The notes under the pieces: generated by a model
What the model saw: the letters and a program-made list of their open reading frames with translations, nothing else
Told to the model about the DNA's origin: nothing
Database searches by the model: none
NCBI GenBank assembly: GCA_037178625.1
Contig: CM074140.1
Location: 1,860,001 to 1,924,000, forward strand
Origin: Skeletonema tropicum
Lineage: Eukaryota; Bacillariophyta; Thalassiosirophyceae; Thalassiosirales; Thalassiosiraceae
Direction of reading: 5' to 3'
DNA length: 64,000 bases
Shown here: one piece after another, positions 23,136-50,510 of the stretch
Numbering within the stretch: the stretch's first letter is position 1
Layout of the letters: every line of letters starts with the position of its first letter
Made by a program: the position numbers and the translations under genes

Positions 23136-24698
23136 CTTCTCAATTATTGAGTAGTATGATACTTTTGAGTCTGATAATTCTTTGGCGTCATCAAAGTACA
23201 GAGCACCACCTTTTATGATTCAAAGTGGGACGGCGGACAGACGGGTCACGCATCATCATCCACCTTCTCATTCTTTTTTTGGAGGGGCAAAATCGACCTA
23301 AACCATGGGATTATTGCCGCAGTAATGATCCTACACACCTCTAATTCGCCCCGCATGTGTGCCCCTCTTGATATGTTCCTCTTCACACTCTGTTGAATCA
23401 CATATCCAGAGGGGCACACATGCGGGGCGAATTCAATAGTGATTTATGGCACCACTAAGATGAGAGCTGCCACTTGCACAGGACCCTCATCCTCACCTTA
23501 TCCTTATGAATAACAATCTGTTGTGAGTGAACACATGTCAAATAGCCCATATTCTGCTTCTATCTTACTTTATAAAACGTTTGACTACCCAATAAGTCTG
23601 TGGTTCTTAGTATTCATGCCAAAGGGGGGTATAAGCGGGGCAAAAGTCTACATAAAAATTGCCAATTCGTAATGATACAGGAGTCTCCTGACATTGCACC
23701 AGATTCCACCCCCGTCAACTTCGGTCTAGCTCATCTTGCATCCATTTATTATCGCGGTTCATCCGCATTTATCGGCGAAAAGTAAGTGTATCCCCACTTC
23801 ATAGCGATCAGCATCCCAAAGTATTAGCTCCACTTAAAAAACTTGTATTGTTGCGTGATCCGGTCTCTACCCAACAATATCTCTGATACGGATCAACCCT
23901 CTGCACTATCAGCTACATATTAACATTATAGAAGCGACGGGGATGAAATAAATGATATTTGGATCATGTCATCGCATTGTAACACCGTCGTATTAAACGT
24001 TATCAATATTCGATGACCCGTCGGTGCTGGTGCATGTCGAACCCAGTGGAGTGTATTCAGAGTTGTCGACCCGGAAGATCAGCCAAGACGACTCCGTTAT
24101 ACTCTTGGATGAAGTTGCCGTCGATGAATGGTGTTCCAATGACTTCACTACATCACTATATCCCCGATCATCGGGACCGGCGACACGATGATACGCCGAT
24201 AAAAAGACCGCTGCCAGGGACTGTATATAATGCACCTATCTCATACTCCAATGTAACCATGCTGTCAATTAATATTTCAAAGACATAATAGAAGAGATAT
24301 TCCTCGAAGTATAGAAGCGATGTCGTCGAAGTGGCGATGATTTTGATAGGGCGAAGTGACGGCTATCATCGTGGTGAACTACTAGCTTTGGGTGGAGGTG
24401 GAAAAATCTTTCCTCATTTTCTGTCTGACCGCGTTTTATTGTCAAGTAGGAATTCAGTATATTTAATTCCTACGTACCCCATGTAAGGACCTTGTCAAAT
24501 TTCCACATTTTGGAGGATGGTGAGAGATGACGTCTCTTCCTCCTGCCCAAGAAGAAGCATACCTACTACACTTGTTTACCTTGACTGAATCTCACGAAAT
24601 CTTCTACGTACGTCGGAATCAGTACATTACCATTCTGAAAGAGGAAGATTCACCCCCAACTCCCCCGACAAATTCGACATGAGGACAAACAAGGCAAA
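23136..24698. other. Gene-poor intergenic stretch
   Basis: This 1.56-kb stretch holds no frame with recognisable protein character. The only clear structure is the strong inverted repeat at 23343-23433, listed separately. The rest is AT-rich with scattered short CG-containing motifs. The right end should hold the promoter of the GT4 gene. Confidence 0.5.
23343..23433. repeat. Near-perfect 33-bp-arm hairpin
   Basis: The left arm 23343-23375 and right arm 23401-23433 are reverse complements over 33 bp with a single mismatch (the arm interior reads CTTGAT against CTGGAT). They are separated by a 25-nt loop. The arms contain AATTCGCCCCGCATGTGTGC. No gene overlaps it. It could be a small-RNA precursor, a cruciform-forming site, or the remains of a short inverted-repeat element. 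Confidence 0.9.
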
Positions 24699-26437
24699 AT
24701 GACGCAAAATCATCATGCTCATTTCGACGCATTTGCTTGCTTGCCATATATACATCTTACCATGTGCCTACCGAACAACAGCCACGGCAAAACTGATAGT
24801 CCTTCATCGACTTTTACTTCTATTTCTGTAGAAGATAAGATTACAGAGGTTCAACCTACCCCAAAGCCTTTGAAAGTCTTGTTGTGCTCCGAAAATGTAC
24901 CTCGTAAGTGATTACGCATCTCTTATGATGTGATTGTTCTGATATTTCATATTACTAACCACATCTTGTATACACGCAGCCCAAGTAAATGGGATTGCTC
25001 GTCGTATAGGCATGTATGAAAAAGGTCTTAAAAATGCCGGCTGCACAGTTGATTCTCTTCATCCAGATATTGGTCTGGATAAGGTTCTGTCTCATGTCAA
25101 CCCATGGAATTTTACATCACGCATGATGATAATCTCCCCCCTTTTTTTGATTCGACTACTCAAGTCATCTTACGATGTAGTGCATGTAGTGATGCCCGCG
25201 AATCTCTCTTCAATGTGGATTCTCGCCGCCTTCAAGTTATTGCGATGCATCAAGCGCGAAACAAAACCGGCTCTTGTTGTCTCGTGGCACTGCAATATTG
25301 TGGATTATATCGAGCATTTTACAATTGCCCCACTGCAGTTTGTTGGCCACTTCTTCTTTTACCTCTTATTTGGTATGCTTCCACTCATCAGTGATCGAAT
25401 CCTTACTCCAACAAGGAAGAGTGAGCCTCACCTCGTCAATATGTGGAGGCGTTCTAATGACAAGGTCTGTGCTGGTGTTTGTTATACTGGAGTAAACAAA
25501 ACAGAGTTCTCTCCTGACGCAAAGTATTCCAGTTGGGGTCAGAGATGGGCTTCATCGAAGGAAAGTTATTTGTCAAAGATGGGGAAGAAGCATCTTCTTG
25601 TGGTGAGTTTTATGATGAAGTATACATCCCCTCATTCATACAACACTTGCTAATACTCATCATTTCCATTCATTCTGTCGTTAGTGTGTTGGAAGGCTGT
25701 CACCTGAGAAGTCAGTTGATGAGCTCATTAAAGCTCTTACTAGCCTCAATGACTGTGCATTGTGGCTCGTCGGCGATGGTCCGCAACGGCCAGAGTTAGA
25801 GCGTCTAGCACGCGACCTCGATGTTCCAGTCAAGTTCCTTGGCTACCAGAGTGGAGAAGCTCTTCATGCTGTGTACACCGTGGCAGATTTGTTTGTCTGC
25901 CCCTCTCTCACCGAGACATTTGGCCAGACTGTCAATGAAGCTCTTGCATCTCAAGTCCGTGTTGCCCTTCCCAATGTTCCAGTATTTGCCGAGGCTTATG
26001 GAGATGCCTTGCCAAGGGACGCATTCTGGGAATCTCACAGCCAGGTAGCTATGATTGATGCTATAAAGAAACAGCTCCATCGACACTCAGAGAATGATCC
26101 CTTCGGAACACCTAATCTCGCTTCTCTCAAGACTTGGGATGATGCCGTTCATGCTCTCCTTGATGAGTACATGGAAGCATTTGAAGATCGTCAACATACT
26201 TTCACCTTGCTAGCAGCATTGTACTTCCCACTTTGGTGTGCAATTACAATAGCTATAGCTATTTTTTTCTTCGCGTTCTCGCAGCTACGTTCATTGTGTG
26301 GAGGATCAGTTAGATTGTTCTTCAAGAAATCAGCTGAAGACGTCTTGATCAAAGTACAATCGTTGCAGAGATTGTCTTCATTCGATGCTCTAGATCAAGC
26401 TGAAAAGACTTCGAAGTGTCCTGAAAAGCAAATCTGA
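24699..26437 (+). CDS. Glycosyltransferase family 4, membrane-anchored
   Basis: Exons 24699-24903, 24980-25602 and 25685-26437 give about 526 residues. Both introns are GT-AG, and splicing restores ENVPPQVNGIARRI and KKHLLVCVGRLSPEKS. The N-terminal Rossmann half carries the acceptor-side PPQVNGIARR loop (about 69-79). The C-terminal half has the donor-binding VGRLSPEKSVDELIKAL (about 278), LVGDGPQRPELERLA, and the E-x7-E type motif SLTETFGQTVNEAL (about 348-361) that binds the nucleotide-sugar diphosphate. A hydrophobic segment near residue 458 (PLWCAITIAIAIFFFAF) suggests a C-terminal membrane anchor; an additional hydrophobic patch lies near residue 190. Similar enzymes glycosylate lipids such as diacylglycerol, but the acceptor here is inferred. 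It lies next to lipid-headgroup enzymes. Confidence 0.9.
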
Positions 26438-26684
26438 TGATCTGTGGCTCTTGAGATTCTTCAATTTGTAGTTATGTGTGTAACCGATACTTAAGCAGTA
26501 TGCAACTTGTATGATCTGTAACTTATCTCTACTAGAGTGGCATTGTATCTGAGCTACCATCTTCGATCTCTCGTAGTATTCTTTCATGTAGACAGATAAG
26601 AGTTACGTAACACTTGTGGATGTATAAAAATGTATTCAATATATTGAGTTTTTGCCTCTTTAGCCGTAACAGGTGCTTTAGGGG

Positions 26685-27710
26685 TTAGTAGTTCTCGCAC
26701 AGAGTCTCTCCAACTTGCACTTCTACATGATCACCTCTTGCTCTTTCGGCCACGTCCATTAGTTCCTTTACCATGCGAAGAGGTTTGGTAGAAAACATTG
26801 CAAAGGCGCTCCCACCGGCTCTAAATGCTGATAATTCTTGTCCCTTTTGCACCATCTTGCCGACAATAGACCTCTCATATGTAATGGTATTCACCCCAAC
26901 TCCGCCAACGATGACCAGGGCGACTCTTAGACCTTCACTCGCCTCCAGAACGATTACTAAGCGCTTATTTTCATTTAGTATGTTGAATTTTCCCCCAAAG
27001 AACTTGACAGATGCTGATAGACTCGTTTCTCCTTCCATCTTGCAATGGATGCATTTACCCGTAATTGGTGAATGGATGCGATGATAGTCCTTCGGAGAGA
27101 GGTATCCTAATGTAATATGGTGTTTCGCATAGCATTCCAGATCTTCATCTGGTAGACCTATACGATCGATGTCGTATTTGCACCCTTTGATCAGCATAGA
27201 CTTCATTGTGGAGTCATCATTGTATATCTGCAAGGTACAGCAAGCGGGAGCAAGAACCTTGCCCGCCCCTAAACGCGGAAAGTGATCATCTTCATATGTC
27301 CTAGAGAAGAAGTCGTTGAGAGATTTGTACTCGGATGGTGCTTTCTCCCATATCCATGGTTTCTGTTCTATACCCAATCTACTGCAAAACTCTGCAATTG
27401 AATGTTCAGCTTCAGTCTCGCTTTTGAAAGGTTTATCCCATGAGTTTTGGATTGATGTAAACAGGTATATGATCCCGTTAATGACAGGGTTCGCTGTTCC
27501 AAATAGTGCAAGATCAAACAACAGAGTTGCAAATACTCCTTCAAATCTTGTCATGCGAGGTTTATCACATTTGAGCTTCATGGATTCTCGTAAAACGTAG
27601 ACACTGAGTGGAGATGTGTTGTGTTTCATGCGATCGGATATGCGGCGAGGTAGCACGAAAAGTAGAATTGACGCGAAGAAGTCGCCTACGGCGAAAAAGT
27701 TTGGCATCAT
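26685..27710 (-). CDS. Phosphatidylserine decarboxylase-like proenzyme
   Basis: 341 residues from the ATG at 27710. The frame continues upstream as protein-like sequence to about 27866, where an in-frame TAG sits in a plausible splice acceptor (TTTTAG), so a 5' exon is possible. Family landmarks in order: LNDFFSRTYEDD (about 131-142), LGYLSPKDYHRIHSP (about 201-215, with the Asp/His pair used in self-cleavage), the KFFGGKFNILNENKR segment, GGVGVNT, and the processing site FRAGGSAFAMF, in which Ser (about S301) would become the pyruvoyl prosthetic group. The residue after the Ser is Ala where Thr is usual. Two hydrophobic segments near the N-terminus suggest membrane attachment. The family converts a lipid-linked serine to the ethanolamine form. 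The gene is divergent from the aminotransferase fusion. Confidence 0.88.
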   Translation of the reverse strand: MMPNFFAVGDFFASILLFVLPRRISDRMKHNTSPLSVYVLRESMKLKCDKPRMTRFEGVFATLLFDLALFGTANPVINGIIYLFTSIQNSWDKPFKSETEAEHSIAEFCSRLGIEQKPWIWEKAPSEYKSLNDFFSRTYEDDHFPRLGAGKVLAPACCTLQIYNDDSTMKSMLIKGCKYDIDRIGLPDEDLECYAKHHITLGYLSPKDYHRIHSPITGKCIHCKMEGETSLSASVKFFGGKFNILNENKRLVIVLEASEGLRVALVIVGGVGVNTITYERSIVGKMVQKGQELSAFRAGGSAFAMFSTKPLRMVKELMDVAERARGDHVEVQVGETLCENY

Positions 27711-27980
27711 GTTACGCAGGTGTAATACAGGGTTATGATCTCTCTGAGCAGCATGAGCAGAAGTAGTGAGACATTGTCGGAGTTCCACCTTGGCTTGACG
27801 CCATCCCCTGAAGGAAGTTTTATGAGCAAGATTCGTCCTATCCGCAAGCCAAGATTCCAATCGGTACTAAAAGATTCCCCTACAGTAGGAATCGTAGTAA
27901 AACTGGAAACATGTCTTTGTTCGCACCTCCTTTCTTGTGAGAACCACCTCTCACACTCCAATGATCATCCCTGCCTCTTG
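27711..27980. promoter_or_regulatory. Shared divergent promoter region
   Basis: This interval separates the decarboxylase ATG (minus) from the aminotransferase ATG (plus). It may include a 5' exon of the decarboxylase. A head-to-head arrangement this tight suggests co-expression, by inference. Confidence 0.35.
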
Positions 27981-30585
27981 ATGATCAAAGCAAAAAATGC
28001 TCTCATTTCTACTTATGCCCTCATTAAAAACTCTCTAATCAAACCTGTAAGCATGGAGCATACTACTCTGCTGATTTGGGCGTTCATTGCTCTTTCCCTC
28101 GCTATCAAATTTGTATGGGAGAAGGTTGAACTTTTCCTCCATTCCAATTTCAAGTATCGCTTCATCAACTCTCTTGCTTCCTACATCTATTATGGTGATG
28201 ATATCGGCGTCAGATCGACTCTGCAGTTGGATTACCCTTCTCCAAACATTCTGGAGCGCCGCCTGGAAGGTCAAAAGTATTTAGAGTCCAAGCTCGGCGG
28301 TAATGCAAGTGCTACGTCGACATCTAAATTCCGTGGTCCAAAATTGGCATCATCTTTAGTGGACTGCCGATTTGCGCTGGCAAAGGTGTGCATGCCCTTG
28401 TTGAGAGAGCTTGAATTCCCTAATGCTGGTCGTAACTTCGTATCTGGTGTGTGCAATGACGGAATAGATGGTAAAGGTGGTATGTTAATCGTGACTACAG
28501 AAGATGGCGTGAGTCGTCCATTTGTGGGCAATGATGCAGTGCACACACTTGGCATCGACACATTCTATGGTCCAATTCAGAAGGAGATTAACCAACGCAT
28601 GCTACTGAATGAGGAGGGAAACAAAGACTCAATGCTGCGTTTCAGTCCCATCTCTATGAACTCAGAACTTGAGAAAAATGTGAGCTTGATTAAGAAGTTA
28701 ACTGGGATGGATAAGGTGAGATACTCACTCAGTGGTAAGTGCACGTGGTTGATAAGGAATTCTCTTCTATGTAGTATGCAAAAACTGAAGCTAACAGATC
28801 AAGTGCAACCTCACTCTTTTCACATAAAGGGAGCGAGGCCGTGGATGCCGCCCTGAAAGATATTAAGGCTTCATGTAATCACAAGCCACTCATCGTACGC
28901 TTCAAGAGTGCCTATCATGGGCATGTGTCGGGAATCAATGTTCTTGATTGCGATGGACATGTCTTTCTTCCTGAATGCTCTCAAGAAAGTCTTGACTTTA
29001 TTGAACGCTACCACTATCGTATTGCTGCTGTAATTGTCAACTCAATGCAGCATTTCACGGGAATAAACAAACCTAGTCCGCCTGGGGAAAAGGTTACACA
29101 TTCGAGCCGTGTACGTTCTGAGGTGTCTCGTGAAGATTACTCAAGGTGGCTCCATTCTCTTCAGAAAAAGTGTAACTACTGCACAAAGTATTTGACGAAG
29201 GTGGCACTGGTAATGGATGACATCTACTTTGCCTTTCGTACGCCAGAACTTCTTAGCTCCAACTATTTCACTCACCCTGAGACAAAAAAAACATTGAAGC
29301 CAGATGTCATCATCTTGGGAAAGGCATTGGCAGCAGGATACCCTCTGAGTGCCGTGGTTGGAAGAGAGGGATGGTTGAACTCGTATGACAAGAAATTTCT
29401 GCTCCAATTGAACAAAACAGTAGGGACTATGGCAGCATGGCACGGCGGCATCGTTGCTTCGAATGTGTTCTTGGAAGCCCTCGAAGGTACTGGATGTATC
29501 AATATTTCCGCAAAACACCAGCTCTCTCTTTTGATGGATAATTGTGATGCATTCACTGTATCCCTCAACGCTAAGTTTGCTGAAACAGGGGTTCCAGTGC
29601 GCATTCGAAACTTCAGTAACACCTTCTCTATCGACTACTTGAACAAGAGTCTTTACAACAGTCGATACCCGCAATACTTGCTCGCAGAGGGTGTCTTCCT
29701 GGGAAACTACTCGACTGGAAAGTTCAATCTCAGCGCTGATGTTTCTGCTGAAGACTTTAAACTTCTTGAGTCAAAGTTTGTATCAGCCGCGTCCCGGATG
29801 CAACATGATGGGTACTTCGAACCTGCGACATCGTCTGCAAGGATCAAACTCTTCGCGACACTTGCTGCTCGTTTCATCAGAAACTATTTGAAGTTGTTCT
29901 GCTGTCAAATCATGAATGACAAGCATATTGACATTGAAGTATCGCACAATCATCCAGTTAACAAGTTTGGTCACTTTTGGTCATCTGTAGGAATGATAAT
30001 CATCGCCTATCCACTTATGTTTTGGTATGGAGAGCCAGTCAAGGGTTGCTGTTGGTTCTTTATCACTCATTTCATTCGTCAAACTGGCCACTTCTTTTAT
30101 GAACATCAGGTAAGCATGAGCATATCTTGTATTGCCTTGAGCCATCTTTCATCTGCTCACACAGCTTGCTCTCAATTGACTAGGACCGAGACATTGAAAA
30201 GCTAAAGTTTGGGCATAAAGATGCATCCAAGAAAGAAGCGGTTGCATTCCTGTTTGGTGCTGCTATCTTCTACAGATATCGAAACGAGTTCTGGAACTTT
30301 GTAGCTCATTACATTGACCCTACTCTATTCCAGCTTTCTCTTGATCAGTACGTTTCCACAATCGCTATGTTCACTATCATTCCACACTTCGTCCAGATTG
30401 TGCACCAGTTTGGGTGGCTGAGAGGAATCAGTTGGGCCGTGAAGATTGCCACTGATCCTTTCACTGATCTACTTGATTTCTACACTCATATTGTCATCCA
30501 TCCGAAGTGGTTTTTGGATGTGAAAGATCAGCGGGCGCGCTACAGGCTAGATGTCAAGACGAAGAAAGTAATGAAGTTAGAGTAA
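27981..30585 (+). CDS. Class III PLP aminotransferase fused to Mpo1/DUF962-like membrane domain
   Basis: Exons 27981-28734, 28830-30109 and 30184-30585 give 811 residues. GT-AG splicing restores VRYSLSGSEAVDAALK. A second in-frame ATG at 28053 is an alternative start. A membrane segment (TTLLIWAFIALSLAIKFVW) lies near residues 27-45. The PLP fold follows: SGSEAVDAAL (cofactor phosphate loop), SAYHGHVSG, MDDIYFAFR with the pyridine-binding Asp (about 380), and LGKALAAGYPLSAVVG with the Schiff-base Lys near 416. From about residue 630 a polytopic region begins NHPVNKFGHFW, with THFIRQTGHFFYEHQ across the last intron. Its His pattern resembles Mpo1/DUF962, an iron-dependent dioxygenase family in yeast fatty-acid degradation. 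The tail has further hydrophobic helices and a Lys-rich end. The domain fusion is unusual; the substrate is unknown, probably a lipid-linked keto compound. Confidence 0.85.
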
Positions 30586-30641
30586 GAGAAAGATAACGAA
30601 GTAGAAGGATTTATTCACCATCTCCATTACTCAATGGGTAC

Positions 30642-30660
30642 ATTAGCTTAGCTTTCGATT
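30642..30660 (+). repeat. Left 19-bp target-site duplication of the retrotransposon
   Basis: ATTAGCTTAGCTTTCGATT occurs here and again at 37720-37738, bracketing the whole non-LTR element. The bases just outside differ (C to the left here, T at the right copy), so the match is exactly 19 bp. At the right side the sequence belongs to a local imperfect tandem duplication (37720-37790) that appears native to the flank. Confidence 0.75.
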
Positions 30661-30835
30661 CCTTTTTTTTTTGCTACGTAGAATGGGCTATGTACTCAAG
30701 AAGAGTCAACCGCGACGGTACTACAATGTTTGCCGACGTCTATTTTAACAGATATAAATCCCATTAACTTGCAAGTTCATTGTTGTGTGGGTTGGTTTGT
30801 TTCACCGAGTGATAACATATTATATACCATACAGC

Positions 30836-30911
30836 AATACTATCGCGACCATCCTAAACTAATCACTTATTTATCCAAAAAAAAAAAAAAAAAAAAAAAT
30901 ACTATCGCGAC
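30836..30911 (+). mobile_element. Tiny poly(A)-tailed retro-insertion with 14-bp target duplication
   Basis: AATACTATCGCGAC occurs at 30836-30849 and again at 30898-30911. Between them lie about 27 bp of unique sequence followed by a run of about 22 A. A short unique body, a poly(A) tail and flanking direct repeats are the hallmark of target-primed reverse transcription of a polyadenylated RNA, here severely 5'-truncated. It sits inside the 5' part of the larger element. Confidence 0.7.
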
Positions 30912-31321
30912 GCACTGCATCGATTTCGATTGTCGCCAACCTGAAAAAAAAAATTGGTGTCAACTTACATCGCTCATGACGTCATACGGTAGGAATAGTA
31001 TTTTACTCCAGAATTCTACAGCTAAATAAATCGTTGAATAATACAAAAGAATATAACAATCATGATGGAAACTACCACTAACGAACTGCACCTCCCATGC
31101 AAAACGATTCGTCCTCATTATACGGATGCATTCCTTCTCGTTCGTGGAGGAATTGATACTAAGTCAGAGCCTCTGTGCTCGTCAGCCACTGGTGCCCCAG
31201 GCTACTCTGTTGAGAGTCAGCAATCAAGGGGAGGTAGTGTCGCCGATGGGCCGGGGGACGTCATCGGCTGAGACCAAACTTTTTCCCCACTTCTTCTGTA
31301 GGTGGTGGGGAAGTAGGCGAA

Positions 31322-34300
31322 ATGGCTACAGATAGAGCTGCTACTGGCCGTCATAGATGCAACGGGTCCAGGCGACGAGCTACCATCCGTCGACAGCACG
31401 CAGTTCATGAGAATAGACATCTAGGGAGTTCATCTCAGGGAAATAACCCGTTACAAGATGGGGATAAACTTTGTTATGATGCAGTTACGAAGTATATACG
31501 CGATAGAATGAGTCGTCGCAACCAGGTAGTCTCAGCAACTGATATAGATAATTTCTTGGAGGCTATCAACGATGAATTGCATATAACTCTTGCCGACCCT
31601 GAAATAGTTGATAGGGAAGTAGCAAGATTACTTGAGGAGAAGGCAAAGTACCATGTTCCCCGGATTGGGGACCTGCCTGAGCAGAAACCTAGTGGTGTTT
31701 TCCGGTTCTTGGCCTGCCAGTTCAATAATATGGCCGGTTCCAAGACACGTGAGAAAAAGGTCGGCGTTATCAAGGACCTGGTAAACAAATATGAGATTAA
31801 TGCTGTTTGCGGGTCCGAAATGGGGGTTAATTTTAGTAGGTTTAATCCGTCCAACTCTTTTGGCTCATGGTTTGAAGGGCCTCGGCCAGTTCGATCTACA
31901 ACAAGTCATAACGTTCATGTTCCGTCTCGATCTACACATCTTGCAGGAGGCACGGGAATGGCTATCTTCAATGAACTCTTACAATACGCGCAACATACGT
32001 GTAATGATTTTCGTAAACTTGGACGGTATTGTTCTTGGGTCTTTCAAGTCACCCCTAATCATCGATTCCGATTGGTTGTGGCTTATTCCACTGGTACTCA
32101 AAGGCCGAAAGGTGTTAGCACTATTTACCAACAACAGTTGGCTTACATTCGAAATAAAAACCTTCGGGTCTCCCCATTCATTTTATTGAAGAATGACTCA
32201 CGACAAGTTCTTAAGCAGTGGATTAAGGATAGTGATCGCATCGCATTGTGTGTGGATTGCAATGAACATATCTTGTCGGGGCGGCTGTCCAAAATGCTGA
32301 CAGAAGAAGTTGGGTTGATCGAGAGGAGTCATGAGTGGTGGCAAGGAGACGAACCTCATACTCATTTAAATGGATCTTCGCCGATCGATGGTATCTTTAC
32401 TACTGTGGATGTCGATGTGTCGTCCCTTTTGATGTTGTCTTTTCATGAGAGCCCAGGTGATCATCGAGCCTTCATCTTTGACCTTACGTCACAGAGCATC
32501 TTTGGTGAAAACTCTTACACAATTCAGCGTCATAGTGCTCGAAAACTGACTCTTAAGAGCCCTCGTGCGGTGAAGGCTTATCTATCTGAGATGCATAAAC
32601 AATTCTCTATACATCGTATAGAACAACGGCAACTGACCTTACGCATCTTGTCTGCTTCCTGTGGAATTCCTCTTTCTCCAGACCTCGAACACCAGTGGCA
32701 AGTTCTTCACAAACAGATCGACGATATTACAAGACATTGTGAGAGTAACTGTCGTCCTCTTCAGTTCCCTGCACTTCCGTGGAGTGAACCAGTGGCCTAC
32801 TGGTATGATAGGAAACGTGCATATGAGCATCTTCGATTGATTTTGCGTCGCGGGTGCACTGGCAATATTAGCAATGCTATTCGAACTTCTAAACGTCATG
32901 GAATCGAGAACCCTGAAGATCTCACCCTTCCGCAGGTCGAAGAAGGTATCAAATATTGTCAGCAGCGACTTCGTCTGCTTACTACTCATGCCTCTGCCTT
33001 ACGAAGTGTTACCCAGCGGAACCAATTGATTGCTGCTGAGGCTTCCGGGAATGCCAAAAAAGTTGTTCGGCTCAAACAGATTGCGGCTAATGAATCTAGT
33101 AAGAAGAGGTGGCGCCAGATAACTCGGTCAACGAAGTCATCCTTTGCTGGAGCAGTGACCAAGACCACTCAGATTAAAGACGGTGTCCTAATCTCAAATG
33201 ATACTGAGGCGTCGGTCTTGGATAGTCTTCAAGAGGCCGTGTCAGAGCGTTTTCTCTCTGCTCACTCTGCTCCTATTCATCAAACATCCTTTGCGGAGCT
33301 GCTCTCTTATCCAAGTGATACTACCATTCCAGATCTTCTTTTGGACAATTCTTTCGTTCTTCCAAATGACTTAGATGACTCCACGAAATGGATCATTGAA
33401 GAGATCCGACGACTACGTGATCGGATTTCACCACCATCTGTCTCCACATTGGTATATACGGAGGACGATTTTCGTCAACAATGGTCGTCTAAACGTGAAC
33501 AAACCTCATCATCTCCGTCTGGCATCCATATAGGTGTCTATAAAGCTGCTCTTCAGGATGATTCTCTTGTCAGATTCTATTCCTCTTATTGGACCGATAT
33601 AATACGTTTCAAGGTGCCTCCTGAGAGGTGGTTTAATGGCCTGCAGGTAGCCTTGCAGAAAGAGAAGGGCAACTTTAATGTCGACCGCCTCCGTTTTATC
33701 CAGCTCTATGAGGCGGATTTTAACCATCTCGACAACTTTCTCTTTGGGAAGAAGGCGATGAATATTCTGTCGGAGGAAGGTGTGATACCTGAGGAGCATT
33801 TTGCTCAGAAACAGAGCACTGCCGAGGATGCAAATATGGATAAGACACTTACCTTTGATCTGTCACGCATTACCAAAACACCCATGACTAATGTCTCTGT
33901 GGACGCAGAGAACTGTTTTGATCGCATTTCACACGTCATCCTGATGCTCATTTGGTACGTTCTCCTTAATGATTGGATGCTCGTTACAATGTTTTTGGAA
34001 GTTATTGGACATATGTGTCTCTACCAGCGTACGGGATATGGCGATTCGCAAACCTTTGTGGGAGGCAAGGACCTTCCTCTCCCGTTTCAAGGGAAGGGGC
34101 AAGGTAGCGGAGGGGCACCTGCAGCATGGATCCACCACAGTACAGTGGCTATTTTGGCTTATCTTCGTCAGGGGTTTTCTTCGTCTTTCACTAATCCCTT
34201 CACTAGGGAAATGTTTGGTTCCATGGGCAGACTCTTCGTGGATGATACTAATCTGTACATTACCCTTGATACAGACTACATGGACCCTACGTTGCTGTAC

Positions 34301-35218
34301 GAGGAACTTTTGGAAGAAACTCAACTGGCGACGACAACTTGGGGGTCTCTCCTCGTGGCTGGGGGTGGTTCTGCAAAGCAGAAGAAGTGCTACTGGCAGC
34401 CCATTCTCTATGAGTCAAATGATGGTCTCTTGTATTATGTTGAAGAGGTGGATATTCAACTTCTGGTACCTCAACCGGGCGACGTTTCAGTCCCCATTGC
34501 TCAACTCTCGCCATTTGATTCGGCTAAGGAGTTGGGCGTGAAGGAATGTGTAGCTGGTGGAAGCCATGATCAATTGGAATCTATGCGTGACAAGTTCAGT
34601 CAATGGGTGTCGAAGATTAGGAACTCGCATTTACAACCCGGCTATGCCTGGTTGGCTTATCGTCTGCAGATTCGGCCAGGGATACGGTATAGTCTTGGGA
34701 CCTTGACCAATGATATGGAGGATATTGCGGATCTGTTTCAAGACATCTATTACAACTTGTTACCCTCGTTAGGTGTTGTCCGCAGCTTCAGGAAGCTATT
34801 ACGTACAGTCCACCAAGCTTTTGGAGGTGTTGGCTTATGGCATATGCCGACTGAACAACTTATTGAACGATTGACAATGTTACTGCAGCATTACCAACGG
34901 GATTCAACTCTTGGACGGAAGTTTAGGGCCATGACGCGGTGGCTGCAGCTTGAAATTGGCACCTGTTTCTCCCCCTTTTCAGTCTCTTATGATACATGGT
35001 CGCCTTTGGCAACACACTGTTGGCATAAAATGCTGTGGAGGACGATTCAATGGTCAGGGATTGAATTATATATTGACTCTGTCCAGATTCCGTATCCCCG
35101 AGAGAATGATATTTGCATTATGGAGTATGTCTTCCAACAGGGTTGTCGGGCGATGATCTGCTCAGCATTAATCGCTGTCGAAATGCCTTACATCTACTAT
35201 TTCTCTCTGATATTGTGA
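31322..35218 (+). CDS. Retrotransposon endonuclease and reverse transcriptase
   Basis: 1298 residues from ATG 31322. Residues about 120-405 form an endonuclease/exonuclease/phosphatase domain: FRFLACQFNNMAGS, a catalytic-region Glu in VCGSEMGVNF, ALCVDCNEHI, and the terminal SPGDHRAFIFD with the catalytic His. The reverse transcriptase domain spans about 715-1010: SGIHIGVYKAAL, NVSVDAENCFDRISHVILM with the first Asp, GSGGAPAAWIHHS, and the active site FVDD near residue 973 (usual form YxDD). The reading frame ends at 35218, but its protein-like character seems to stop near 35140, where the RNase H frame takes over. Two small frames upstream (31062-31271 and 31126-31335) might be remains of an ORF1 but show no recognisable domain. 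Confidence 0.85.
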   Translation: MATDRAATGRHRCNGSRRRATIRRQHAVHENRHLGSSSQGNNPLQDGDKLCYDAVTKYIRDRMSRRNQVVSATDIDNFLEAINDELHITLADPEIVDREVARLLEEKAKYHVPRIGDLPEQKPSGVFRFLACQFNNMAGSKTREKKVGVIKDLVNKYEINAVCGSEMGVNFSRFNPSNSFGSWFEGPRPVRSTTSHNVHVPSRSTHLAGGTGMAIFNELLQYAQHTCNDFRKLGRYCSWVFQVTPNHRFRLVVAYSTGTQRPKGVSTIYQQQLAYIRNKNLRVSPFILLKNDSRQVLKQWIKDSDRIALCVDCNEHILSGRLSKMLTEEVGLIERSHEWWQGDEPHTHLNGSSPIDGIFTTVDVDVSSLLMLSFHESPGDHRAFIFDLTSQSIFGENSYTIQRHSARKLTLKSPRAVKAYLSEMHKQFSIHRIEQRQLTLRILSASCGIPLSPDLEHQWQVLHKQIDDITRHCESNCRPLQFPALPWSEPVAYWYDRKRAYEHLRLILRRGCTGNISNAIRTSKRHGIENPEDLTLPQVEEGIKYCQQRLRLLTTHASALRSVTQRNQLIAAEASGNAKKVVRLKQIAANESSKKRWRQITRSTKSSFAGAVTKTTQIKDGVLISNDTEASVLDSLQEAVSERFLSAHSAPIHQTSFAELLSYPSDTTIPDLLLDNSFVLPNDLDDSTKWIIEEIRRLRDRISPPSVSTLVYTEDDFRQQWSSKREQTSSSPSGIHIGVYKAALQDDSLVRFYSSYWTDIIRFKVPPERWFNGLQVALQKEKGNFNVDRLRFIQLYEADFNHLDNFLFGKKAMNILSEEGVIPEEHFAQKQSTAEDANMDKTLTFDLSRITKTPMTNVSVDAENCFDRISHVILMLIWYVLLNDWMLVTMFLEVIGHMCLYQRTGYGDSQTFVGGKDLPLPFQGKGQGSGGAPAAWIHHSTVAILAYLRQGFSSSFTNPFTREMFGSMGRLFVDDTNLYITLDTDYMDPTLLYEELLEETQLATTTWGSLLVAGGGSAKQKKCYWQPILYESNDGLLYYVEEVDIQLLVPQPGDVSVPIAQLSPFDSAKELGVKECVAGGSHDQLESMRDKFSQWVSKIRNSHLQPGYAWLAYRLQIRPGIRYSLGTLTNDMEDIADLFQDIYYNLLPSLGVVRSFRKLLRTVHQAFGGVGLWHMPTEQLIERLTMLLQHYQRDSTLGRKFRAMTRWLQLEIGTCFSPFSVSYDTWSPLATHCWHKMLWRTIQWSGIELYIDSVQIPYPRENDICIMEYVFQQGCRAMICSALIAVEMPYIYYFSLIL

Positions 35219-37488
35219 CTGCGGATGGATTACATTTTGAGCGTTCCTTGATATCCCGAACTGGCAATACTCCAATTGAATCATCATATGAATTTCCAGT
35301 GTCTCTTCCAACTATGCTGGATTGGAGACGTTGGGAAGCATTCTGGACGAGAGTCAGTGGACCAAGCAATTCTACATATCGCTTCTTGGGACGCTGGATA
35401 CATCTTTCTCATCGCAAGTGGCGCTGGTATTATGACGAAGGCTGTGATCAGATACAATACAAAATTGATTCGTCTACTATTCTCCTGTACAATAGGAGTG
35501 GAATTGGCAGGACACGTTCACAACGCACGTACGTTCGTTCGTCCGTTGAAAGGAGTCAACAAATGTCCCTTGGGATGCCTACATCGATTCATACTATCAC
35601 TGAGGATTCGGTGCTACGGCTGTATACTGGTCCTTCCCTCTCATCACCACCACAGTCACCGGCTGACTTCTGGTCGTTTCTTGCTAGTTGGGGTGGTACT
35701 TGGATGTGGAGGGATGTCGTCAACTCCGCTGCAGCTCCGTCCGATCTTCAGTGGCTCACGATGGCAATACGGTCGAATACCGCTCTTTGGTGTACTGATG
35801 GCTCTCACGACCCTGTCTCAGCTCCTGAGATCAGTGGAGCTGGGTGGATTATCTATGATACCATCACAGAGCACTACCTGAGTGGTTCTTTCTTTGAGCG
35901 TTCTGACCAAGCGAGTTCCTACAGGGTTGAAATGATTGGTAATCTTGCCTTGCACATCATGTGTAGTGCCCTCGAACAGTTTTATGTCCTTCCCAAATGT
36001 TCTAACAAACTGTTTTGTGATAACGAGGTTACTTTGAAAGAGTCAAGACGTAGTCGAAGAAGGGTTCCTCCCAAAAAGGCATGCAGTGATGTTATTCGAC
36101 ATATGCGGTCATTAAAGGAATCCCTGGCGATGCAATTTGATTATATAGACGTTGATGCACATGCAGATGAACGGCAACAATGGGAGCGTCTCACCATAGC
36201 ACAGCAACTCAACTGCAGATGTGACTTACTTGCCAAAAGTGCGGTGTCCACAGCAATTTCCCTTGGCTCTGCCATCCCGCAGCGTTTTCTGTTTCCGAAC
36301 GAAGGCGTTGCTGTCTTTGTCAATGGTTGGAAGCAAACCTCGGATCTGTCCTCCTCAGTGAGGTTCGAGGTTGGCAAGCGAGAAGCAAGGAGAGTTCTTA
36401 CTCAACCATACACCGTTGGGGGCCAGTTGAAGCAGGCTCCTCTCTCTTGTGAACAATTTGATGAAATCGACTGGGAATCGCGTGATCGAGCTCTCACGCA
36501 TGGGGATATGTACAAGACATGGCTGACAAAACAAACGAGCAACTTTTGTGGCAGCGGGGTTCAAGTTGCGAGGTATGCAGGACACACATCGGGCATCTCT
36601 TCGATGGAACTGATCCAGGATTGCTGCCCGAATTGTGGTATGAAGGGCGAGCGTGCCTCTCATCTGTGCTGCTGCCCTGATCCAGATCGTACCAGATTAT
36701 ACAAAGAACAGGTTGAGGACCTCGAAACGTGGATGATCAAGGCGTATGGCCATCCTGAACTTGTTTATTTTCTACCGAAATATCTTCTCTTACGGGGTAC
36801 AAGGGAATTTAGCTCTCTTGGTACAATGTCTTCGGATATGATGAAGGTCGCTAGGAGCCTAGATGTCATCGGATGGAGACACCTTACTGAAGGAAAACTT
36901 TCTAGACTCATTCTACCTATGCAGAAGTCTTACTTAGTCACCACTCCAAGCAGAATTAGCGGTGAGGCATGGGTCAAACAACTTATCCATCGCATCCTAC
37001 ATACTACCCATTCACAATGGATTTATCGCAATGTCAGTCTCCATCACAAACGAAACGGAGTCCTGGCTACACAGCGGTCAAAACATCTTCTCAATGTAAT
37101 CGAACTGATACTTTTGACGCCAGAGGATGAACTTCCCGATGATTCCAGATATCTTCTTGACATCGATATAAATACTCTGCGCAAACGTCCAGTTGAGGAA
37201 CAGGAGAATTACGTTTACGTTGCGAAGGCTGCTATTCGTGCTGGTCAACGAACGCACGCAGGCAGGGCGTCACGACTTCGATTCAAGAATCGTCGTGTCT
37301 CTACACGCCAGAAGCTCGGCCTCGATGAGGTGGAAACCCAACTACGACAGACTAGAACTCCATTTAGTCAGTCGGAACGTGAGAGGCGCTCACTGTTGGG
37401 AGCTTCCACCTTTTCTAGAAGTCGACCACATCCTTCCTCCACCATTGCGAATCAAGGAAGCAACAAGAGGCTGAGGAAACCTGATTGA
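35140..37488 (+). CDS. Retrotransposon RNase H region, shifted frame
   Basis: This open frame (no stop from 35110 onward) continues the protein encoded upstream after a shift of minus one. Within the overlap 35110-35218 the best junction is near YVFQQG to LSGDDLLSINRCR. Around residue 220 from the frame start an RNase H-like fold is visible: ALWCTDGSHDPVS with the first acidic residue, EISGAGWIIYD, ASSYRVEMIGNLALHIM with Glu, and KLFCDNEVTLKES with Asp. Further on, CCPNCGMKGERASHLCCCPD is a Cys/His cluster typical of the zinc-knuckle-like end of LINE proteins. The C-terminal 80 residues are basic. A one-base deletion or programmed frameshifting could explain the break. Confidence 0.75.
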   Translation, partial: GLSGDDLLSINRCRNALHLLFLSDIVTADGLHFERSLISRTGNTPIESSYEFPVSLPTMLDWRRWEAFWTRVSGPSNSTYRFLGRWIHLSHRKWRWYYDEGCDQIQYKIDSSTILLYNRSGIGRTRSQRTYVRSSVERSQQMSLGMPTSIHTITEDSVLRLYTGPSLSSPPQSPADFWSFLASWGGTWMWRDVVNSAAAPSDLQWLTMAIRSNTALWCTDGSHDPVSAPEISGAGWIIYDTITEHYLSGSFFERSDQASSYRVEMIGNLALHIMCSALEQFYVLPKCSNKLFCDNEVTLKESRRSRRRVPPKKACSDVIRHMRSLKESLAMQFDYIDVDAHADERQQWERLTIAQQLNCRCDLLAKSAVSTAISLGSAIPQRFLFPNEGVAVFVNGWKQTSDLSSSVRFEVGKREARRVLTQPYTVGGQLKQAPLSCEQFDEIDWESRDRALTHGDMYKTWLTKQTSNFCGSGVQVARYAGHTSGISSMELIQDCCPNCGMKGERASHLCCCPDPDRTRLYKEQVEDLETWMIKAYGHPELVYFLPKYLLLRGTREFSSLGTMSSDMMKVARSLDVIGWRHLTEGKLSRLILPMQKSYLVTTPSRISGEAWVKQLIHRILHTTHSQWIYRNVSLHHKRNGVLATQRSKHLLNVIELILLTPEDELPDDSRYLLDIDINTLRKRPVEEQENYVYVAKAAIRAGQRTHAGRASRLRFKNRRVSTRQKLGLDEVETQLRQTRTPFSQSERERRSLLGASTFSRSRPHPSSTIANQGSNKRLRKPD

Positions 37489-37719
37489 AACGGTGTACTA
37501 GTAGCGCAGCAGACCTGGTTATGCTACGTTTGTTAGTTCTATTAGTGTTGATGGTTACACTCTTAATCAGATCCCGGCACTTTGCCGAAGTGAGGATTAG
37601 CCTCAGTCGCCTCGTTGCGGCCTTGCTATGTGTGTAAACACATGGCAATGAACAGACCTCGAGTCTACTCAGCAAGTATGTATTGTATTTAGGATAGTTG
37701 AGTAATTTTCTAAGTTATT

Positions 37720-37738
37720 ATTAGCTTAGCTTTCGATT
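37720..37738 (+). repeat. Right 19-bp target-site duplication of the retrotransposon
   Basis: This is an exact copy of 30642-30660. Directly downstream, 37752-37790 repeats a related motif (TTAACTTTCGATGAGAGTATATAGC), so the right copy lies in a native short tandem duplication. Confidence 0.75.
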
Positions 37739-37761
37739 AGATTATATAGCAGCAGCCTGTG

Positions 37762-38409
37762 TTAGTTTAACTTTCGATGAGAGTATATAGCTGCAGCCCA
37801 ACGCCTTCCTCTTTCATGCTCGAATACTTGCATGGACATAGTGTACCAGAATAGCTCAAATACTGGGACAACATAGGATTTAGCCCCAGCAGATAAATAG
37901 ATGCCAAAGATGCACATGACCACGCCCCAATACTGCGGATCATTGATGTTCAGGTTGTAAGGGAAGCATGATACGCGCGCTACATGGTAGCCGAACTCAT
38001 AGCCGTAATATACGCCTTTCGCTCCTAAAGCTTTGAAGACAGCGTAGTTCAATGTCTGACCAGCAAATAGAAAAAGTATTCCAACAGCCAGTTGAACATG
38101 CTTATCGGGGTTCGTGAGCATTCCTCCCATGAGCAAATTACTCTTGACGTTTTCATAGTCCAACACTAACAAATCATACGAGATTACTGAGACTTGAAAT
38201 ACTTTTATGTACACTCCTAGACGTTGCATACAGCGCCAGTAGTTGTGCCTTTTCCCGTCTTTTTGCACTTTAGATAGTCCAGGGATCTTGCTTTCGTCGA
38301 CAGACTTCTTGAAGTGATTAGTACAGATGAAGCAGTAACCGTACAGCACGCGCTCGATGCCAAGCGCAAAGAAAGCGATGACGGCAAAGGGTAAGTCGAT
38401 ATTAAACAT
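37762..38409 (-). CDS. PEMT-family phospholipid N-methyltransferase
   Basis: 215 residues from ATG 38409, close to the usual length of about 200. The frame is open further upstream to an ATG at 38748, but that would overlap the start of the divergent oxygenase gene and adds a poly-Ser tract, so the shorter form is preferred. Four to five membrane helices are visible. The diagnostic C-terminal part reads GVYYGYEFG, then VSCFPYNLNINDPQYWG, matching the GxFxGDYFG and RVTxFPFNxxxNPMYWG pattern of phosphatidylethanolamine N-methyltransferases, followed by an acidic EHERG where the family has a Glu pair. It should transfer methyls from S-adenosylmethionine to an amino group on a membrane lipid. Before the retrotransposon inserted, its 3' end lay close to that of the aminotransferase fusion. 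Confidence 0.82.
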   Translation of the reverse strand: MFNIDLPFAVIAFFALGIERVLYGYCFICTNHFKKSVDESKIPGLSKVQKDGKRHNYWRCMQRLGVYIKVFQVSVISYDLLVLDYENVKSNLLMGGMLTNPDKHVQLAVGILFLFAGQTLNYAVFKALGAKGVYYGYEFGYHVARVSCFPYNLNINDPQYWGVVMCIFGIYLSAGAKSYVVPVFELFWYTMSMQVFEHERGRRWAAAIYSHRKLN

Positions 38410-38711
38410 TGTTGGAATGCTGCTGCTGCTGCTGCTTGCTGCTAAAGTGTCGGCATTGCAATGCTTGGAGAGACGAAGCAGCCAGCAAAAAGTGAGATTC
38501 TCCTGAGATTCATGGGTCGTCGTGGAAGAAAATGAGAAGGTATATAGGTTCAGGTACGGTGCCTGAAAGCGAAGATGGTATCCGAGATGCCTGTCTAAAT
38601 ACCTCACAACTCCAATCACCACAAACCAAACAAGTAAGCGCAGAAGCATGAAGCAAATGCGCCATACTCGTCCATCATAGCACATCGATATCAATTGATG
38701 GCAAAAGAGCA

Positions 38712-40238
38712 ATGAAAAAGATGCATTCTCTAGCGATAACTGCACCATTGCTGCTAGTCTACGCTAGCACGCTATGCTGTGGCTTTACGCACTTTTCACT
38801 GCCTATCTCGTGTCGGCGAGAGGTACCCATCACCAGACAAACATCACTATCGCCTAGAAAAAAGCACGCAATCTATCAATCTGTCCAATCGCAAGGAAAT
38901 GAAGATCCTTGCATTCGACTTGAAGTGGGATCTTGCTTTGGTGTCGAGAGCAACGAGCTGTCACATCTTTTGGAGGCCATGTCAGGTGTATGTCACGAGT
39001 ACGGCGTTAAATTTGACCGTACACTTACATCAGACATCTGTTCATCCACACAACCATCATCATCAGTCCCAGGAGCATTGGGTCGAGTAGTAATTGTAGA
39101 CGTTCATGGAGCAGCAGAAATGAATATTGAAGAGAGTGATTTCATAACAGAGTTGAAGAATGGCATATCGCAACAGATTGATGGCTATCTTTACTCGGGA
39201 CAACTTTCGCAGCCAGTGTTATTGGCATTTCAATGTGCTACTGCAAAGAGTGCCACGTTTGATAGCATAATTGAAAAGGAAGTGCTAGATTATGGTTTGA
39301 GAGATGGCATAGGCAGAGATGCGACAATAACCGATCATGATGATGCATCGTTCATTCCTTCTCGACACATGAAACTGGACGGGGCAATGATAGAAACTAT
39401 TGAATCTCCAGGACAATTACACTTTGATACAAGCTCAGTTGTTGTGTTTGACAATATATTAGATGAGTCATTGCGAAGAAGACTGTTGAATGTTGTGAAA
39501 GGCTATCCAGAAGACGCAGCTGCTGACATTTTTTGGGACGATACTCAAGATGGTCCAAATCCAGATAGATGGGTGAGAGGAGGCCTAATGGATATTGTTG
39601 ACAGCAAAAGCGAAGAAGAAGAAGATGGTCCGTGCTGGGGGCTGACGGACGACGCAATAATTGATATTTGCTTTCACGATCATCCTGCTATCAACGAGTT
39701 TGAAGCCAAGTTAGGGCAGTTATTTTCAGACTACATCGTTACGACTTTGCCCGAGGCAGTTCTAGGTGACTGCGTTTCTCCAATCACGGCTAATGCACCC
39801 TGTTATAAAGACACCTTCGAATATCATATCGACGCTGATCCTATGCAAGTGCCACCGTCACCATGGGCTGATGTATTTGGCAGATATCCAAATAGATCAA
39901 AAAGCAAACCGAGGTTTGTATCTGTTTTGCTGTACTTGAATGATGAATGGAATGCAGAAGAATGGGGTGCGCCCACAAAGTTTTTGGATCCACCAACGCA
40001 AGAATCGTATGAAATATTTCCGCAACCTGGGAGGTGTGTGATCATGGATCAAGATATCAGCCATACGGTTGTTGCACCAAAGAAAGAGGCAGGCAAGCGA
40101 CCAAGGTATTCCATGGTTTGGAAGCTTATTTTACACCCAAAGAAAGTTGGCCAGGATATGACGGATTTATCTTGTGGGAGAGGAAGGTTATGGCCGAAAC
40201 CGGAGCAACTTGGTAGTGCTGTCCGACAAGAAGTGTAA
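38712..40238 (+). CDS. 2-oxoglutarate/Fe(II) dioxygenase, probably organelle targeted
   Basis: 508 residues from ATG 38712. The N-terminus is a hydrophobic signal-type stretch ending LCCGF followed by a basic Ser/Thr-rich segment, compatible with diatom plastid import. The C-terminal catalytic core has the iron-binding facial triad: YHIDADP (H372, D374) and the distal His in DISHTVVAP (H451), followed by the 2-oxoglutarate-binding basic residue in RPRYSMVWKL. The spacing matches prolyl-4-hydroxylase-like enzymes. The middle third (about 60-250) has no recognised fold. The substrate is unknown. It is divergent from the PEMT-like gene with about 300 bp between starts. Confidence 0.82.
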   Translation: MKKMHSLAITAPLLLVYASTLCCGFTHFSLPISCRREVPITRQTSLSPRKKHAIYQSVQSQGNEDPCIRLEVGSCFGVESNELSHLLEAMSGVCHEYGVKFDRTLTSDICSSTQPSSSVPGALGRVVIVDVHGAAEMNIEESDFITELKNGISQQIDGYLYSGQLSQPVLLAFQCATAKSATFDSIIEKEVLDYGLRDGIGRDATITDHDDASFIPSRHMKLDGAMIETIESPGQLHFDTSSVVVFDNILDESLRRRLLNVVKGYPEDAAADIFWDDTQDGPNPDRWVRGGLMDIVDSKSEEEEDGPCWGLTDDAIIDICFHDHPAINEFEAKLGQLFSDYIVTTLPEAVLGDCVSPITANAPCYKDTFEYHIDADPMQVPPSPWADVFGRYPNRSKSKPRFVSVLLYLNDEWNAEEWGAPTKFLDPPTQESYEIFPQPGRCVIMDQDISHTVVAPKKEAGKRPRYSMVWKLILHPKKVGQDMTDLSCGRGRLWPKPEQLGSAVRQEV

Positions 40239-50359: not shown

Positions 50360-50510
50360 CGCTGCGCATCAGCCGCTTCTAGAGACCCATGATACTTGGC
50401 GACGATAGGATAGAAGCACTTAGCACTGCCCAAACGGAGTGCGTAGATGGACGCAATGCTACAGAATCGTATCTGATTTGAAAGGTCCAGTGCGGGCTCG
50501 GCCTAAAAAG
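50360..50510 (-). repeat. Diverged satellite relic, inverted relative to the array
   Basis: In this segment CAGCCGCTTCTAGAG, CACTGCCCAAACGGA, ATGCTACAGAATCGTA and GGTCCAGTGCGGGCT follow in the order expected from the reverse complement of the 184-bp unit. Many substitutions make it clearly older than the homogeneous array. Confidence 0.7.

Follow-up and report, generated by a model that had tools for sequence, protein, structure and literature searches.

A cluster of genes in Skeletonema tropicum and other diatoms is predicted to make the head group of DGCC (glycerol-O-CH(COO-)-O-choline), a reading to which we assign a probability of about 0.55. In the window analyzed here, by which we mean the whole stretch of 64,000 nucleotides, a GT4 glycosyltransferase, a divergent member of the phosphatidylserine decarboxylase (PSD) family and a class III aminotransferase (AT) fused to an Mpo1-like membrane part lie next to each other, and the same three genes are linked in other diatoms. 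The fused aminotransferases constitute a family of their own, and the PSD-like enzymes a clade with an altered active site.

Among the membrane lipids of marine eukaryotic phytoplankton is DGCC, described as a major component in coral-symbiotic dinoflagellates (PMC6281602, PMC10301201), and in T. pseudonana it is described as taking the place of phosphatidylcholine (PC) under phosphate shortage. Papers of 2017-2023 call its synthesis unknown, T. pseudonana being known for DGCC without a known pathway (PMC5835749, PMC5516115), and searches of the open-licence literature on DGCC or diatom lipids yielded no gene for its synthesis among the entries listed. Label from methionine is described as entering the DGCC head group (PMC5835749), which is the outcome that PEMT chemistry would give. 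The BtaA/BtaB and BTA1 systems, responsible for DGTS and DGTA, likewise start from diacylglycerol and use SAM-dependent N-methylation, a step that is here predicted, to arrive at a betaine lipid free of phosphorus. Their distinctive reaction is the transfer of homoserine, BtaA moving this unit from SAM (PMC10685587), whereas a search for BtaA-type synthases (PF11899) gave no match in this genome at E<=0.001, with a positive result in the control, Deinobacterium chartae. The cluster genes scanned contained no BtaA domain, and T. pseudonana is likewise reported to be without BTA1 (PMC3315573, PMC5516115).

Organization of the locus

Pfam profiles and exon reading located all five genes that the original prediction had placed at this locus. 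The GT4 glycosyltransferase, assigned by family match, encodes 526 aa on the forward strand (exons 24699-24903, 24980-25602 and 25685-26437) and is followed by the PSD-family pyruvoyl decarboxylase on the reverse strand (26685..27710; PF02666, E 3.6e-26). Divergent from the latter, across a common intergenic stretch of about 340 bp, lies the AT with its C-terminal Mpo1-like membrane part (787 aa; forward strand; exons 28053-28734, 28830-30110 and 30185-30585). The splice sites of GT4 and AT were set by reading frame and family match, and not from transcripts. A PEMT-family N-methyltransferase of 215 aa (37762..38409, reverse strand; PF04191, E 8.2e-12) and a 2OG-Fe(II) oxygenase of 508 aa (38712..40238, forward strand; PF13640, E 4.3e-9) complete the group.

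These genes had been presented as neighbours; all five are present, but a dispersed repeat, absent from that earlier description, parts AT from PEMT. The insertion measures 7.08 kb and lies outside the predicted pathway; its span on the forward strand (30661..37738) includes one copy of a 19-bp direct repeat that flanks it at 30642 and 37720, and which we read as a target-site duplication. With the insertion removed, the stop codons of AT and PEMT are about 100 bp apart. It carries two long ORFs (31322-35218 and 35113-37488), and a Pfam scan of its ORFs gave no match at E<=0.001; read by eye, it looks like a non-LTR retrotransposon. The dispersed repeat accounts for 54 matched stretches genome-wide, a count that includes those of the window and in which some stretches are pieces of one copy. 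A 2.4-kb copy (99.6%) covering all of GT4 and the 3' end of PSD is present on contig C19. A second copy of the cluster on that contig was considered and rejected, since the 29 kb compared contained no other alignment >100 bp.

Features of the encoded enzymes

The AT fusion forms a distinct family of 88 members, in which scores drop from 410 to 44 bits at the next relative; no second AT was found in this genome. Both domains are covered in 83 of the 88 members, and the PLP lysine and the aspartate are present in 86/87 and 87/88, respectively. All 47 members scanned match PF00202 (for instance P0007, with 57.8 bits against a cut-off of 30.5), and the second exon of the window AT alone reaches 29.9 bits, just under that cut-off. 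By sequence and by fold, the aminotransferase half matches best with class III enzymes, namely the aminotransferase domain of mycosubtilin synthase, GSA aminomutase and beta-transaminases, with 12-19% identity in the 50 Foldseek matches listed, and its structural neighbours include NeoB, an aminoglycoside-sugar aminotransferase. In contrast to these enzymes, the diatom protein has an N-terminal hydrophobic helix and the C-terminal Mpo1-like membrane domain.

This C-terminal part, in which six histidines are conserved, has conserved histidines and a weak profile likeness (positions 14-69 of 95) in common with the 2-hydroxy fatty acid dioxygenase Mpo1 (PF06127), yet it differs in being part of an aminotransferase and in scoring below the Pfam cut-off. 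The original prediction of an Mpo1-like domain fused to the aminotransferase is backed by a weak match (E<=0.05, best 8.3e-5) in 39 of the 47 members scanned; in the five proteins for which a bit score is available (the window AT, P0007, P0072, P0063 and P0003), however, this match reaches 13.8-20.4 bits against a cut-off of 24. A PF06127 search of the diatom's own genome for a second Mpo1 gave no match anywhere and missed even the fused domain itself, so that it carries no weight. Two other origins or occurrences were considered and discarded. For a bacterial version of the AT fusion, a genome-contig scan returned nine loci; at the one inspected (L035) the match falls in a polyketide-synthase-like protein, on its aminotransferase part, and no Mpo1-like part is present. 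For viral origin or viral copies, scans of viral contigs with AT alone, the AT alignment and the PSD alignment returned no relative.

The PSD clade has 115 members and is set apart by a drop from 184 to 70 bits to its next relatives. No full PSD match other than the window PSD (92.5 bits for PF02666, against a cut-off of 22) was found in this genome, and the PSD fold was recovered in 18/18 significant Foldseek matches. Profile, fold, two active-site histidines and the pyruvoyl-serine motif are common to this protein, to phosphatidylserine decarboxylases and to PsiD-type pyruvoyl decarboxylases; PF02666 also includes enzymes acting on other amino acids, such as PsiD and a fungal arginine decarboxylase. 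Known PSDs differ from the clade in having LGST where the clade motif is GGSA, in the residue at Asp-90, and in that the clade's genes are linked to AT-Mpo1 and GT4. The GGSA motif is kept, by pattern, in 87 of the 115 members; two of the other 28 have a motif variant, and 26 are apparently cut off or run into other sequence. At the position equivalent to E. coli Asp-90, which is D in five bacterial PSDs aligned with the clade, 101 members have C, 13 have S and one has T, and an enzyme of a clade in which this residue is missing in 115/115 members is, judged by its sequence, not an ordinary PSD. E. coli D90 mutants nonetheless decarboxylate phosphatidylserine (PS), and D90 is described as not essential (PMC7952604). 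Hence, the loss of Asp-90 is weakened as proof of a new substrate, and we use it only as a clade marker. The equivalents of the phosphate contacts Y137 and S166 of E. coli are kept (Tyr in 114/114, Ser in 95/104) and favour PS as a candidate substrate, which leaves an ordinary role in the conversion of PS to phosphatidylethanolamine (PE) a possibility to be weighed below. A search for base-exchange PS synthase gave no match in the genome, and its control search was likewise silent.

The GT4 clade comprises 74 members at >=239 bits, with the next relative at 87 bits, a wide gap that makes it a clade of its own; its best model and structure matches are lipid-acceptor GT4 enzymes (glucosyl-DAG synthases and PI-mannosyltransferases). 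For the clade members P0218 and P0251, IagA/BgsA, GlcDAG synthase and GlcN-PG synthase are among the best NCBIfam matches, far under their cut-offs, and among solved structures P0218 is best matched by a phosphatidylinositol-mannoside mannosyltransferase. The predicted role of the enzyme is to add a sugar to a lipid, with diacylglycerol as the probable acceptor. The N-methyltransferase, which presumably resembles human PEMT, is predicted to trimethylate the amine, and the 2OG-Fe(II) oxygenase might oxidize an alcohol or be an unrelated neighbour.

Linkage of the core genes in other diatoms

Linkage in other genomes refers to AT, PSD and GT4, and that of PEMT and the 2OG oxygenase to this genome alone. 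The three core genes are linked in Thalassiosira profunda (ACHAXT_005177, AT; 005183, GT4; 005186, PSD) and on scaffold1083 of Cylindrotheca fusiformis (genes 8, AT; 9, GT4; 11, PSD), two of them in Conticribra weissflogii (ACHAXS_007147, AT; 007149, PSD), and three metagenome contigs probably carry all three. Members of the AT and PSD families lie on a single 1.99-Mb sequence in T. pseudonana and on separate short contigs (14851 and 8845 bp) in Stephanocyclus meneghinianus. Among the AT, PSD and GT4 homologues listed, no linkage was seen outside diatoms. When the homologue tables were compared for contigs of identical size in bp (>=2 kb), 10 coincidences were obtained for AT-PSD (mean 0.54 and maximum 4 in controls with sizes shifted by 1-60 bp), 6 for AT-GT4 (mean 0.45, maximum 3) and 9 for PSD-GT4 (mean 0.27, maximum 2). 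As the coincidences far exceed the controls, the grouping of the core genes is not due to chance. Gene order differs between Cylindrotheca (AT, GT4, x, PSD) and the Skeletonema window (GT4, PSD, AT), and the three genes remain linked across centric and raphid pennate diatoms; the survival of linkage through rearrangement suggests selection. A lack of clustering in relatives, which the original prediction had named as evidence against itself, is not what was found, GT4, PSD and AT-Mpo1 being linked in other diatoms.

Haptophytes and core dinoflagellates both include DGCC makers, and neither group appears among the named homologues of AT, PSD and GT4, about one quarter of the proteins bearing names. 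A member of the AT family is present in Amoebophrya, a dinoflagellate relative. P. tricornutum, which contains DGTA, is absent from the names in the 88 AT, 115 PSD and 74 GT4 members, most of which are nameless.

A proposed route to DGCC

In the route that we infer from these enzymes, GT4 would attach a pentopyranose to diacylglycerol. Once C3 had been oxidized, the Mpo1-like iron domain would cleave the C2-C3 bond with one O2 (CH(OH)-C(=O)-R + O2 -> COOH + HOOC-R), with an atom balance equal to that of Mpo1, which cleaves a 2-hydroxy acid with one O2, and C2 would remain as the carboxyl of DGCC. A further oxidation, at C4, would allow the fused AT to convert the alkoxy-pyruvate arm into an O-linked serine, which the PSD-like enzyme is predicted to decarboxylate to O-ethanolamine, and PEMT would trimethylate this to choline. 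For the two alcohol oxidation steps, the candidates are the 2OG oxygenase encoded nearby and a dehydrogenase whose gene lies outside the cluster. The carbon count of the original prediction holds, in that the computed atoms of the pentose-to-DGCC scheme balance; it had named no particular oxygenase for the C-C cleavage, for which the Mpo1-like part of AT seems a better candidate. A hexose or glucuronide route was rejected on paper: C5 of a hexopyranose is not CH2, and the choline chain would need an extra decarboxylation. Taken as a whole, the synthesis of DGCC from a pentosyl-diacylglycerol, through a C2-C3 split by the AT-fused Mpo1-like part, a PSD relative and a final PEMT step and without a homoserine step, is put forward as a tentative scheme, somewhat less likely than not.

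Alternative explanations

The same gene families and the same linkage could serve to make a lipid other than DGCC, a glycolipid or betaine-like lipid with an amino or choline group. Here GT4 would add a sugar to a lipid, the oxygenase and AT would modify this sugar, and the PSD-like enzyme and PEMT would trim and methylate it; sequence does not fix the product. The presence of NeoB among the structural neighbours of AT makes an amino-sugar lipid possible, and linkage extends to Cylindrotheca, a genus not known to us as a DGCC producer. We nevertheless consider this unlikely, for a serine decarboxylase paired with PEMT suggests that the head group ends in choline, and T. pseudonana, with members of the AT and PSD families, is known for DGCC without a known pathway (PMC5835749, PMC5516115). 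An ordinary pathway from PS through PE to PC, formed by PSD and PEMT beside unrelated genes, was the simpler alternative named in the original prediction. It would agree with the window PSD being the only full match in the genome, with its retained phosphate contacts, with the activity of E. coli D90 mutants on PS (PMC7952604) and with the PEMT family of the methyltransferase. This PSD clade, however, is devoid of the Asp-90 equivalent throughout and is linked to AT-Mpo1 and GT4, and not to an established PE gene. We know of no step in PE or PC synthesis for AT-Mpo1 or GT4. Moreover, P. tricornutum, described as containing PC (PMC5516115), is not named among the 115 PSD members listed, and we regard the ordinary pathway as unlikely.

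It is also conceivable that the neighbourhood arose by chance in a gene-dense genome, its recurrence reflecting old synteny of unrelated genes. Close spacing is general here (about 18 bp separate the stop codon of the oxygenase gene from the end of the adjacent gene, which encodes a PPR protein), and the divergent AT-PSD intergenic stretch alone could keep that pair together. The linkage of three genes in centric and raphid pennate diatoms despite their changed order makes this explanation very improbable.

Implications

In the sugar-consuming reading of the cluster as a DGCC locus, C1 and C2 of the pentose would become the carboxy-acetal, and a betaine lipid would be built out of a glycolipid. 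If this is true, the three linked genes would provide a short list of candidates and a metagenome marker for DGCC capacity, and the diatom cluster would represent a new way of making a betaine lipid.

The gene cluster and its genomic context

The 78.4-Mb genome of this eukaryote is distributed over 125 contigs, and the 2.7-Mb contig that carries the window contains all five genes of the cluster originally predicted: the GT4 glycosyltransferase (exons 24699-24903, 24980-25602 and 25685-26437, forward strand), the PSD (26685-27710, reverse strand), the aminotransferase-Mpo1 fusion (exons 28053-28734, 28830-30110 and 30185-30585, forward strand), the PEMT (37762-38409, reverse strand) and the 2OG-Fe(II) oxygenase (38712-40238, forward strand). 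The window PSD is 93% identical to one database protein and 84% to a Skeletonema marinoi protein, which suggests that the DNA comes from a relative of Skeletonema. Among the remaining window genes scanned, which include a zinc-type dehydrogenase (22083-23135) and a PPR protein (40256-43405), none has an evident lipid role. Between the dehydrogenase and GT4, at about 23348-23435, an inverted pair of some 28 bp each (attcgccccgcatgtgtgcccctct and its complement) with a short loop was noted by eye, possibly a small mobile element or a hairpin. Further along, G+C content is locally higher at 50001-56000 (0.505, 0.552 and 0.484), a region with no open reading frame of at least 220 aa.

The five genes had been described as neighbours and do all lie within 24699-40238, but a dispersed element at about 30.66-37.72 kb (30661-37738), with two long open reading frames, parts the aminotransferase from PEMT. 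The gap is an insertion of this element: an exact 19-bp repeat flanks it, in copies 7078 bp apart, and when the genome was probed with 1761 bp of its 3' part, 54 stretches matched, the window's own and fragments counted. Bases 1-1724 of the probe are covered by five other genomic matches, which end at window position 37723, inside the repeat copy beginning at 37720. With the insertion discounted, about 100 bp separate the aminotransferase stop codon from that of PEMT. In neither reading frame did Pfam recognise anything at E<=0.001, and by eye we read the element as a non-LTR retrotransposon; since near-identical copies (98-99%) occur elsewhere in the genome, it has been recently active.

Conservation of the core genes

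Co-conservation in relatives, proposed as a check on the original prediction, was borne out for the three core genes in other diatoms. Judging by locus names, the aminotransferase, PSD and GT4 genes lie together in Thalassiosira profunda (ACHAXT_005177, 005183 and 005186) and in Cylindrotheca fusiformis (scaffold1083, genes 8, 9 and 11), and two of them share an 8847-bp contig in Conticribra weissflogii (ACHAXS_007147 and 007149). In T. pseudonana the aminotransferase and PSD share one 1,992,434-bp sequence, weak evidence of linkage taken alone. For other contigs, the exact size of the longest contig served as a stand-in for a shared contig, equal size being no proof of one contig. Comparing 84 (aminotransferase), 111 (PSD) and 70 (GT4) distinct sizes, we counted, at sizes of at least 2 kb, 10 coincidences for aminotransferase-PSD, 6 for aminotransferase-GT4 and 9 for PSD-GT4, including T. 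profunda, C. weissflogii and T. pseudonana and excluding Cylindrotheca, which has no contig size, and a PSD-GT4 coincidence at 1094 bp, which was too short. Control sizes shifted by 1-60 bp coincided 0.54, 0.45 and 0.27 times on average, respectively, and at most 4, 3 and 2 times. Four sizes are common to all three tables: 7126, 12956 and 38639 bp, and the T. profunda size. Stephanocyclus meneghinianus provides a counter-case, its aminotransferase and PSD being on separate contigs, both short (14851 and 8845 bp), and no contig size of an aminotransferase from outside the diatom group recurs in the PSD or GT4 tables. Because gene order in Cylindrotheca is unlike that of the window, linkage seems to have outlived rearrangement. 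The linkage of the three core genes in a conserved diatom cluster is nearly certain.

Each of the three core families forms a separate clade. Among the 7997 candidates with most shared words, the only ones scored, 88 aminotransferase relatives reach at least 410 bits and the next score is 44; the corresponding figures are 115 at no less than 184 bits, then 70, for PSD (best 120 of 124 matches), and 74 at 239 bits or more, then 87, for GT4 (best 120 of 356 matches; 7997 candidates scored). The minority of entries with an organism name are diatoms in all three families, with the sole exception of an aminotransferase from Amoebophrya sp. A25. A tree of the window aminotransferase and 46 others of at least 660 aa, excluding 42 shorter members, places the window and the named diatoms in a fully supported group of 28 and Amoebophrya in a second group of five (support 100/99), the remaining 14 forming no supported group. 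A compact, Asn/Lys/Ile-rich relative of the fusion (P0063, 713 aa) lies on a 70,682-bp metagenome contig and could come from a small AT-rich protist or a large virus; scans of viral sequences for relatives of this type found none.

Conserved residues and predicted structures

The PSD clade keeps the GGSA motif (87/115), two histidines (113/114 and 113/113) and, in E. coli numbering, the residues corresponding to Tyr-137 (114/114) and Ser-166 (95/104), which contact the phosphate, and to Asp-142 (110/114). At the position of Asp-90 all 115 members have C, S or T; the tryptophan decarboxylase PsiD likewise has no aspartate there in a printed alignment, and in a profile search it scored similarly to E. 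coli PSD (50.0 against 48.8 bits). The predicted structure of one clade member (P0102; pLDDT 84.0, pTM 0.84) gave 18 Foldseek matches at E<=0.001, all of them to E. coli PSD, PsiD or fungal arginine decarboxylase.

Members of the aminotransferase family conserve the PLP lysine (86/87) and aspartate (87/88), and 83 of 88 cover both domains. The Mpo1 profile match is weak (E<=0.05 in 39/47 members, and under the curated cut-off in every score shown); in the C-terminal part, each of six histidines is conserved in at least 75 of 81. The predicted structure of one member (P0003; pLDDT 83.6, pTM 0.76) has a helix at the N-terminus and a bundle of helices at the C-terminus. The genome holds one aminotransferase-Mpo1 gene.

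Discussion

DGCC has the structure glycerol-O-CH(COO-)-O-CH2CH2-N(CH3)3. The proposed route would start from a pentopyranose on diacylglycerol, in which C1 is the acetal, C2-C4 are alcohols and C5 is the CH2 on the ring oxygen. Its 3-keto form would be cleaved at C2-C3 with one O2, yielding two carboxylates in exact balance; C4 would then be oxidised, the product transaminated, C3 lost as CO2 and three methyl groups added, and cleavage and transamination may occur in the opposite order. Mpo1, whose family Pfam names 2-hydroxy-palmitic acid dioxygenase, cleaves a 2-hydroxy acid with the same atom balance as the proposed split. The 2OG oxygenase is a candidate for the two alcohol oxidations, a role against which its N-terminus, resembling a plastid pre-sequence by eye, would speak. 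The carbon count of the original scheme fits, the computed end formula, C7H14NO3, equalling the head group as counted from the DGCC structure. We infer the steps past gene-family assignment, and the complete ring-cleavage route is possible, if rather doubtful.

An ordinary role for PSD and PEMT in PE and PC synthesis is an unlikely alternative, yet one that redundancy evidence is compatible with, given a single full PSD in the genome and four additional PF04191 matches that, in the fetched stretches, bear no significant likeness to the window PEMT (best tblastn E 0.063). The other PSD sequence is a fragment on contig C19, where positions 837774-840175 (5775-8175 of the fetched stretch L016) are a 2.4-kb, 99.6% identical duplicate of window 24559-26958 with the entire GT4 gene and the PSD 3' end only, a recent additional GT4 copy. 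The retention of Tyr-137, Ser-166 and Asp-142 equivalents, together with the PS decarboxylation that E. coli D90 mutants retain according to parts of one report (PMC7952604), favours this ordinary role and argues against a new PSD substrate. A base-exchange PS synthase found no match in the genome, nor did the control for that search.

Passages in the literature on diatom lipids indicate that, under phosphate shortage, T. pseudonana swaps PC for DGCC and P. tricornutum uses DGTA, that T. pseudonana is without a BTA1-like gene, and that DGCC synthesis is described as uncharacterised (PMC5516115, PMC5835749, PMC3315573, PMC10685587). Four methyltransferase-domain transcripts are up in T. pseudonana under such shortage, as stated in part of one of these (PMC3315573). 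Another mentions an induced putative DGTA enzyme in S. costatum (PMC5516115), which sits oddly with the lack of any PF11899 (BtaA-type) match in the present genome; the control for that search, in Deinobacterium chartae, was positive. Excerpts elsewhere report DGCC in dinoflagellates (PMC10301201, PMC4837943) and haptophytes (PMC8379373, PMC3806458).

The conserved three-gene cluster of diatoms very likely serves a lipid, and DGCC, to which we assign a probability of roughly 0.55, is the best single reading of its product.
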